Source: Hyphomicrobiaceae bacterium (GTDB lineage: Bacteria > Pseudomonadota > Alphaproteobacteria > Rhizobiales > Hyphomicrobiaceae). From it: DNA of 64,000 bases. The notes beneath the pieces are model-generated. The model had not been told where the DNA came from, searched no databases, and saw only the letters and a program-made list of their open reading frames with translations. Made by a program: the position numbers and the translations under genes. Positions 14,060-16,485 of the stretch are shown here, piece after piece; the stretch's first letter is position 1, and each line of letters starts with the position of its first letter. The stretch spans positions 496,001 through 560,000 of the forward strand of contig JALHOW010000001.1 in assembly GCA_022842785.1 (NCBI GenBank), read 5' to 3'.

Positions 14060-15052
14060 TCAGAGACCGCGAGCGGCGGCGAGCGCGGCGAGCGACGTCT
14101 CCGGGCGCGCGCCGATGTGGCTGATGATCTCGCCGGCGGCGAGACTGCCGAGATGGCCGCAGGCTTCGAGCGGCTTGCCGCTCGTATATCCGTACAGGAA
14201 GCCCGCGGCGTAGAGGTCGCCGGCCCCTGTCGTGTCGATGACCTGTCGGATGGGCGCTGCGGGCACGCTCACGGCCTTGTCGCCCTTGAAGATGACCGAT
14301 CCCTTGGCGCTCCGCGTGAGTACGGCGACCTTGGCATCGGACTTGGCCTGGCGCGCGGCCTCCTCGAAGCTGGCGGCGCCGTAAAGGGCCGTAATCTCGG
14401 TTTCGTTGGCGAACAAAATATCGACGCGGTGGCGGATGAGTTCCAGGAACTCAATGCGATGGCGCTCGACGCAGAATCCATCGGAAAGCGTCAGCGCAAC
14501 TTCGCGTCCGGCCTTCTCGGCCATGTCCGCCGCATGGCGGAAGGCTGCCTGGGCATCGGGGCGGTCGAAGAGATAGCCCTCGAGATAGAGGATGCGCGAG
14601 GCGGCGATGAGCTCGGGATCGACGTCGCGCGGGCTGAGCTCCGGGCTGACGCCGAGGAACGTGTTCATGGTGCGCTGGCCGTCCGGCGTAACGAGGATCA
14701 GCGAGCGCGCCGTTGGCGCGCCGCCCGTCGAGGCCGGTGTATCGAAGGCAACGCCGGCGGCGCGAATGTCGTGACGGAAGATGTTGCCGAAATCGTCCTC
14801 GGTGACCTTGCCGATAAAGGCCGATTTGCCTCCGAGCGAGGCAATGCCGACCATGGTGTTGGCGGCCGAGCCACCGGAGATTTCCACGGCCGGGCCCATC
14901 TCCTGATAGAGATGCGAGACGCGATCCGCATCGACCAGCATCATGTGGCCCTTGGCCAGATTGTGCTTGATGAGGAAGTCGTTCTTGCAGCGGCCAATGA
15001 TGTCGACGATGGCATTGCCGATGCCCACGACGTCATGTTCGATCTTGGCCAT
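14060..15052 (-). CDS. PfkB-family carbohydrate/nucleoside kinase (adenosine kinase-like)
   Basis: A 330-residue ribokinase-fold kinase. The N-terminus DVVGIGNAIVDII, the substrate-lid motif SGGSAANTMVGIASLGG, the catalytic anion hole and base DTTGAGDLYAAGF and the following GY-rich helix are PfkB signatures. Alphaproteobacterial members of this length are annotated as adenosine kinase. The gene is monocistronic, followed by the basic-protein gene on the same strand and preceded by two large palindromes. The precise substrate is inferred from family resemblance only. Confidence 0.87.
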   Translation of the reverse strand: MAKIEHDVVGIGNAIVDIIGRCKNDFLIKHNLAKGHMMLVDADRVSHLYQEMGPAVEISGGSAANTMVGIASLGGKSAFIGKVTEDDFGNIFRHDIRAAGVAFDTPASTGGAPTARSLILVTPDGQRTMNTFLGVSPELSPRDVDPELIAASRILYLEGYLFDRPDAQAAFRHAADMAEKAGREVALTLSDGFCVERHRIEFLELIRHRVDILFANETEITALYGAASFEEAARQAKSDAKVAVLTRSAKGSVIFKGDKAVSVPAAPIRQVIDTTGAGDLYAAGFLYGYTSGKPLEACGHLGSLAAGEIISHIGARPETSLAALAAARGL

Positions 15053-15117: not shown

Positions 15118-15192
15118 CTAGTGTCCCGATCGCGAAGTTCGTCACCATCTGCGGCGGCTCTCGAGCGAACTTCGCGATCGAAAGGGCACTAG
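15118..15192. repeat. Palindromic element 1 (CTAGTG...CACTAG, 15-bp inner arms)
   Basis: A 75-bp inverted repeat: CTAGTG at the left end and CACTAG at the right end, with perfect inner arms CGATCGCGAAGTTCG (15127-15141) and CGAACTTCGCGATCG (15166-15180) around a 24-base loop. It lies in the gap between the PfkB kinase and holA, 13 bases from a second element with the same ends. No coding sequence is seen in it. Confidence 0.85.
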
Positions 15193-15205
15193 CAAATCTA
15201 TGTTT

Positions 15206-15283
15206 CTAGTGCGGTTCAGATTCCGAAGTCCGCCTCCCAGGCCTGCCGCGAAGTGGTGGCGGACTTCGGCATCACCGCACTAG
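15206..15283. repeat. Palindromic element 2 (CTAGTGCGGT...ACCGCACTAG)
   Basis: A 78-bp inverted repeat with outer arms CTAGTGCGGT (15206-15215) and ACCGCACTAG (15274-15283), and inner arms CCGAAGTCCGCC and GGCGGACTTCGG. It has the same CTAGTG/CACTAG ends as element 1 but different inner arms. The shared termini and tandem placement suggest two members of one small palindromic repeat family. Confidence 0.85.
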
Positions 15284-15324: not shown

Positions 15325-16371
15325 TTATGCTCGCGGCGCTGAGATGTCGCGGGAGGTAGCCAAGCGGGCAAGCTCCATGAGCAGGCGCTCGGCATGGGCG
15401 TCCTCGAGACTCGATGCCGTGCGGGCGGCGAGGGCGCTGGCGCGGATGCGAGCGACGGCGGCCGCGAGCTTCGACGCGGTCCAGCGCCGGCACTGCGCTT
15501 CTACGGCCGCGCGGCGCTTGAAGTGCAGGGGGGGACGGATCTGGCGCATGGCCTCGTCCATGCTGCGTCCGCCCTCGATGGCGCCGCGAATGCGATGCAG
15601 GCGGGCGAAGTGCCACTGCACGGCCGCGATCACCGATTGCGCACCCTCGCCAGAAGAGAGCAGGCGCTGGCAGCCTTCGATCGCACGTGTGCTGTCCCCG
15701 GCGGCGGCCGCATCGATGACGCGCTCCATGGCGAGTTCCGAAGCATCACCGACAATGGCCTCGATGTCCTCGGCCTGGATGGTGCCGCGCCCGGCGGCGT
15801 AGAGCGCGAGCTTCTCGACTTCGCCGCGCGACAGCCCGCGGTCGGCGCCAAGGCGTGCGATCAGCATTTCGCGCGCGTCGGGCGTGAGAGACAGGCGGTG
15901 CGCGCCGAGTACCTCATTGACCATCACATCGAGCGACTGGGCATCATCGCCGAAGCAGGGAATGGCGGCGGCGTGAGGCGCTTTCTCGAAAGCCGCGCGC
16001 GCGGCGTCGTCGGCGCGCAGGTTGCCGCCTTCGACGATCAGCACGCCAGCCAGCGGGGGCCCGTCCAGAATGCCACGCAGAAGCGCACCCGTGACGCGCC
16101 GGCTCATGTTCGTGCGCACGATCTTGCGCCCGCCGAACATGGGAAGCGTCAGCAGCTCGACAGAGAGTCGCTCGCCGTCATCTTCGAGCTCGGGATCATC
16201 GATGCGCACGATCTCGCCGGGCGGTGTATCGCGTGCGGCAAGCGATTGCGCGAGCCGCACGGCACGTTCGCTGACGAGGCCCGTATCGCTGCCGTAGATG
16301 AGGAACGCGGTGAGCCCGGGATCGGGCCGCGTCAGGACGGCATTGGCTTGCTGAGCTTTGACGGCGACCAT
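15325..16371 (-). CDS. holA: DNA polymerase III subunit delta HolA
   Basis: A 348-residue clamp-loader subunit that opens the beta sliding clamp. The family N-terminus is seen in LIYGSDTGLVSERAVRLAQSL; later landmarks are LPMFGGRKIVRTNM, LIVEGGNLRADDAARAAFEK, the EVEKLALYA segment and the C-terminal helical collar with AQSVIAAVQWHFARLHRIRG. I chose ATG 16371 (MVAVKAQQANAVLTRPDP) over the longer track frame. It is the third gene of leuS-lptE-holA, a conserved alphaproteobacterial order. Confidence 0.93.
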   Translation of the reverse strand: MVAVKAQQANAVLTRPDPGLTAFLIYGSDTGLVSERAVRLAQSLAARDTPPGEIVRIDDPELEDDGERLSVELLTLPMFGGRKIVRTNMSRRVTGALLRGILDGPPLAGVLIVEGGNLRADDAARAAFEKAPHAAAIPCFGDDAQSLDVMVNEVLGAHRLSLTPDAREMLIARLGADRGLSRGEVEKLALYAAGRGTIQAEDIEAIVGDASELAMERVIDAAAAGDSTRAIEGCQRLLSSGEGAQSVIAAVQWHFARLHRIRGAIEGGRSMDEAMRQIRPPLHFKRRAAVEAQCRRWTASKLAAAVARIRASALAARTASSLEDAHAERLLMELARLATSRDISAPRA

Positions 16372-16485
16372 CTTTGCTTGCCATGGGCTGCTGGAAAGAG
16401 GTTCGCGACCGTTATCGGCGTGCCACGCCCACGGCGTCAATACATCAAGGTCGCGTTGGGAAGTGCGCGTGAGACGCGCGGCAGC

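Follow-up and report, generated by a model that had tools for sequence, protein, structure and literature searches.

Several families of short palindromic repeats are known that resemble the element described here. RUP is a 107-bp pneumococcal MITE of IS630-Spn1 that uses TA as its target, is mostly intergenic and occurs in about 100 copies (PMC2229807). IS630 itself prefers the TA within CTAG (Tenzen and Ohtsubo 1991, as cited in PMC2170065). In REPINs or BIMEs, inverted REP hairpins are moved as single-stranded DNA by RAYT, a Y1 HUH transposase; they form inverted hairpin doublets with a conserved tetranucleotide at the hairpin feet and covariation in the stems, are mostly extragenic and can build tandem arrays (PMC3116915). 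Additionally, palindromic repeats tagged with GTAG or CGTC have been described in Alphaproteobacteria, including Bradyrhizobium (PMC3733652).

Here we analyse a double-hairpin element of 166 bp at 15118-15283 (minus strand) of the window, that is, the whole stretch of 64,000 nucleotides from a Hyphomicrobiaceae genome. This element is very probably a non-autonomous MITE of the IS630 family in which each end has grown into a long hairpin. Like RUP, it is a short non-autonomous repeat with IS630-like terminal repeats, a probable TA target and a mostly intergenic location, but RUP has a single pair of short terminal repeats whereas members of this family consist of two long hairpins set at a fixed distance. 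It has in common with IS630/ISY100-type insertion sequences the end GTGTCC(C/T)GAT, probably the TA inside CTAG as target and, in the matching IS, a DDE_3 transposase; in contrast to them, it has no transposase gene, and each of its ends is duplicated in inverted orientation into a hairpin. REPINs and BIMEs are similar in their inverted doublet, compensatory changes and possible tandem arrays, but their units measure 20-40 bp compared to 75-78 bp here. The GTAG- and CGTC-tagged repeats are likewise palindromic and alphaproteobacterial but differ in size and architecture, and the tag CTAG does not occur in PMC3733652. The IS630 MITE is therefore a known kind of element (compare RUP), while the double-hairpin build and the orientation of the copies appear to be undescribed, as our search of the open-access literature found no description of this CTAG-ended doublet family. 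It would be a large and apparently undescribed repeat family of the Hyphomicrobiaceae linked to a transposase subgroup.

Structure of the element

Direct reading of the sequence confirmed the two palindromes of the preliminary description, 75 and 78 bp long, 13 bp apart and with CTAGTG/CACTAG ends. CTAGTG-N50..80-CACTAG has two matches in the window and none in any of 100 shuffles. Hairpin unit A (unit 1, 75 bp; 15118-15192, minus strand) has perfect inner arms of 15 bp (15127-15141 pairing with 15166-15180), and its outer end at 15118 corresponds to the IS end with the transposase stop codon. Hairpin unit B (unit 2, 78 bp; 15206-15283, minus strand), delimited by palindrome search and alignment to unit A, has perfect outer arms of 10 bp (15206-15215 with 15274-15283; CTAGTGCGGT/ACCGCACTAG) and perfect inner arms of 12 bp (15223-15234 with 15258-15269; CCGAAGTCCGCC/GGCGGACTTCGG), all these arms being as previously described; an inverted-repeat search merges the arms of unit B into one 19-nt stretch at 89%. 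The terminal CTAG motifs at 15118-15121 (A side) and 15280-15283 (B side) were assigned from empty sites, and their TA is probably the duplicated target dinucleotide. The 13-bp spacer (15193-15205, minus strand) reads AAACATAGATTTG; this is the commonest B-to-A spacer, of the CAAGTCTATGATT type, in reverse. Folding of 15118-15283 is far stronger than that of shuffled sequences, both as RNA (z = -7.6) and as DNA (z = -9.1). The two palindromes had been considered a tandem with unlike interiors. The interiors do differ, yet they are related, because unit 2, when reversed, can be aligned with unit 1 as a hairpin of one and the same kind; judged by this alignment, the pair is an inverted doublet of related hairpins rather than a tandem of unrelated palindromes.

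On the minus strand, which is the direction of transcription of both neighbouring genes, the order is B-spacer-A. The upstream gene, a 371-aa ORF (15325-16440, minus strand) with no Pfam match that is presumably holA (DNA polymerase III delta), has its stop 41 bp before the B end. The downstream gene (14060-15052, minus strand) codes for a PfkB-family sugar/adenosine kinase and starts 65 bp past the A end. This intergenic location and the strong hairpins would also suit an operator or terminator specific to this locus, acting between the holA-like gene and the kinase gene. However, such a function is extremely improbable, since the element is absent from this locus in three related genomes (G002, G003 and G004) and the family is present about 20 times elsewhere; it contains no U-tract terminator, and a GC-rich hairpin followed by a T run was not found within 15118-15283. 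The preliminary description had already argued against a single operator, noting that uniqueness in the genome together with conservation at the locus would speak for one; neither was observed. The element had no match in Rfam.

Distribution of the family

In the host genome (G000), 33 units with exactly matching ends are spread over about 20 places, as anticipated from the earlier suggestion of a MITE-like dispersed palindromic family and a genome-wide search for its ends. These units are nearly everywhere paired, unit B being followed after about 13 bp by unit A in inverted orientation. Among 60 pairs scanned in loci of other genomes, the spacer measured 13 bp in 55, 12 bp in four and 14 bp in one. 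The presence of CTAG ends on each unit, and the existence of single and chimeric units, could suggest that two independent palindromes were inserted side by side, as had been proposed, but this is scarcely credible given the near-constant length of the spacer, its partly conserved sequence among doublets and the invariably inverted units. The two palindromes are evidently one putative 166-bp mobile element, with the B-spacer-A doublet as the unit of dispersal. Copies are short (166-167 bp) and have no transposase gene inside.

A covariance model of the unit was used to scan 40 genomes, including the host and 16 from other families of the order. Copies were found in at least 18 of the 40, host included, representing 14 genera of Hyphomicrobiaceae and most of the genera sampled in this family, whereas the 16 genomes from other families had no unit copies among the matches listed. 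The closest copy to that of the window among the retrieved loci is in MAG SB17 (L218; 146 of 167 positions identical over the full length), and another in Hyphomicrobium sp. CS1BSMeth3 is 80% alike; from these values, the window copy belongs to a less common subfamily. Near-identical copies in genome G006 indicate recent spread. In addition, the host has about 11 copies (L064-L074) of another subfamily, which ends in CTAAAG/CTTTAG, is likewise built as a double hairpin and has a 12-bp spacer in most host copies.

Two mixed doublets, at L200 and L269:7174-7341, combine a CTAAAG-subfamily hairpin (D) with an A hairpin from the CTAGTG subfamily. At L098, L237, L257 and L075 there are single chimeric hairpins in which an A arm faces a B arm, as would result from deletion of the interior of a doublet. 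Together, these chimeric hairpins and mixed doublets show that hairpin units apparently recombine. Copies also decay by deletion (L183, L199). At L183, a site filled in the host and in G003, most of the element is deleted in G004 and a remnant, CTAGTGTCCCGA, is left.

Insertion sites

Empty sites were found by joining the host flanks without the element and searching the same genus; in the genus of G006 this search was confounded by divergence and by other repeats. Orthologous empty sites have about 4 nt in place of the element, namely CTAG at L179, L187 and L185 and CGAG, GTAG or CTAT at several others, the lack of an exact CTAG in the latter being attributable to divergence of the relatives. 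Most insertion sites are not common to different species of the genus, and the window locus is one of the empty ones (in the three genomes named above). Other sites carry the element in at least two species, which shows that copies can persist.

CTAG is found at both ends of the element, and CTAG or near variants in the empty sites, so that duplication of TA and of CTAG can be told apart only through the CTAAAG subfamily. This subfamily reads C-TA-AAGC...GCTT-TA-G, which fits TA and not CTAG as the duplicated part. The apparent target duplication that the preliminary description proposed to look for is thus best read as an insertion at the TA of CTAG with duplication of the TA, as for IS630. 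A transposase of this type acting in trans would excise the element, which would insert at such a TA and duplicate it, leaving every copy bounded by CTAG. At L333, tandem elements have a single CTAG in common.

The target motif is scarce: the window contains 24 CTAG against 210 expected from base composition, and of the 20 outside the element seven are stop codons, ten are intergenic and three lie inside genes. Since CTAG is rare in these genomes and mostly found in TAG stops or intergenic DNA, copies would be steered to the ends of genes. In the empty site of L185, one CTAG provides the stop codons of two convergent genes; in the host, after the insertion, each gene retains its own TAG on either side of the element. 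CTAG targeting could be a simple rule behind the accumulation of bacterial mini-transposons around stop codons and at the junctions of operons. At L032, a terminator-like hairpin (GGCCCGC-CTAG-AGCGGGCC) carries the insertion in its loop. Another abundant repeat, consisting of GTCATCCCGG type palindromes, is found in G006 and its genus (flanks of L090 and L087), and some MITE copies in G006 are inserted into it.

Partner transposase

The related genome G006 has an IS630-family IS in two direct tandem copies of about 1.17 kb each with one CTAG in common (L363:158-2505), whose transposase matches DDE_3 and NF033545 (288 bits). The IS ends are CTAGTGTCCTGATTCCGAAGTTTTCC and CTAGTGTCCTGATCGATAAATTTCCC. 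The family consensus agrees with them at 20 of 23 bases for A and 18 of 23 for B, the maximum among 20,000 random 23-mers being 16, and the A and B ends correspond to the two IS ends in the same asymmetric way. For the window copy the values are 17 of 23 for A and 16 of 23 for B, to the other IS end, the latter being at the top of the random range. Furthermore, the A end of the MITE encodes the last residues of the transposase and its stop codon (TSESGH followed by stop). Plasmid IS630 elements in Rhodovastum, Komagataeibacter, Sinorhizobium and Bradyrhizobium also begin with CTAGTGTC. The matching IS630 ends and the encoded transposase terminus make it highly probable that these elements are IS630-type MITEs. 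Within G006, the ends of the local MITEs match those of the IS at just 17-18 of 23 bases, indicating that this IS is a relative and not a proven partner.

The REP-like origin also suggested in the preliminary description would have RAYT as the mobilising enzyme and CTAG in the role of GTAG. The REPIN-like traits of the family listed above agree with it, but Y1_Tnp had no match in the host, G001-G004, G006 or G011, several of them rich in copies, in a search whose control recovered that of E. coli, and both the ends of the element and its target match IS630 instead; hence we regard this origin as quite improbable. Of the transposase or RAYT gene with matching ends expected earlier, only the transposase was found, in the related genome.

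DDE_3 is present in G006 and had no match in the copy-rich genomes of the host, G002, G004 and G011. The copies in these four genomes may no longer move, or may depend on a transposase that was lost or is carried on a plasmid. For a MITE, a partner in the same genome is the rule but no strict requirement, and many MITEs persist after their transposase has gone. The missing partner in the host lowers the claim of current mobility but not that of origin.

Other candidates were rejected. Partners of the IS3/IS30/IS481 type (rve) and the IS4/IS5 type (DDE_Tnp_1) were not found in G002 and G011, both rich in copies. When 1.46 Mb of loci were searched without bias for autonomous elements bounded by CTAG, the only results were neighbouring MITE copies around ordinary genes. 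A small ORF running from an ATG in the spacer to the terminal TAG is open in 57 of 114 copies, but as the ATG is absent in 40 we did not regard it as conserved; its terminal residues reflect an origin from the C-terminal end of the transposase.

Orientation and gene context

We counted neighbouring starts and stops for 122 distinct doublets, a few of them orthologous to each other, which slightly inflates the counts; gene starts were called by a simple method based on codon usage. Within 12 nt, start codons were found on the A side in 22 cases and on the B side in none, while stops within the same distance were found 43 times on the B side and 12 times on the A side. In 51 cases the stop is provided by the TAG inside the terminal CTAG. 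Sense orientation outnumbers antisense (46 vs 22, p = 0.005). The window copy has the same orientation as the family bias, but at 65 bp from the downstream start.

The A end resembles a ribosome-binding site (GGGACACTAG then ATG) and the B end does not, with anti-SD energies of -4.4 kcal/mol (median) and about -0.1 kcal/mol, respectively. Where an element adjoins a start codon, the native SD is found beyond the element, and its median energy in the reconstructed empty site is -6.1 kcal/mol; for most insertions nearest a start codon, a reversed element would give about -0.1. Selection would mostly retain one orientation, with B next to the upstream stop and A next to the downstream start, since of the two ends only A could act as a weak ribosome-binding site. 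We infer that the bias comes from selection for a usable SD, and a preference at insertion is also compatible with these data. This one-sided association with start codons offers a testable case for elements that replace a ribosome-binding site. More tentatively, a MITE landing between the ribosome-binding site and the start codon, with a substitute ribosome-binding site on one end, could have had its double hairpin kept as an expression-setting module whose arms evolve in concert.

Covariation of the stem arms

An alignment of 55 diverse doublets shows pairing in 98.3% of cells; both sides have changed in 29 of 48 pairs, compared to 5.3 in shuffles. Terminal hairpins are dispensable for a simple MITE, which means that this covariation needs a further cause. 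One explanation is that selection retains the copies as regulatory modules, in the form of mRNA structures between cistrons that set expression ratios or translation starts, with mobility only as their origin. In its favour are the strong orientation bias, the position between ribosome-binding site and start codon, the compensatory changes and the lower divergence of the arms between orthologous copies (8%, against 19% for loops and spacer; p = 4e-6). Nevertheless, we consider it unlikely, because most sites are not common to the species of the genus, copies decay by deletion, and both bias and covariation could also arise from purifying selection at insertion combined with correction of the arms. 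For the IS630-type MITE that we favour, concerted arm change at orthologous sites would provide natural material to compare arm correction with selection. Paired changes are seen between orthologous copies, for example CCGCAG/CTGCGG vs CCGAAG/CTTCGG, and double changes are more frequent than wobble intermediates in the arms, an excess that fits arm-to-arm correction, as a possible cause, at least as well as selection at the RNA level.
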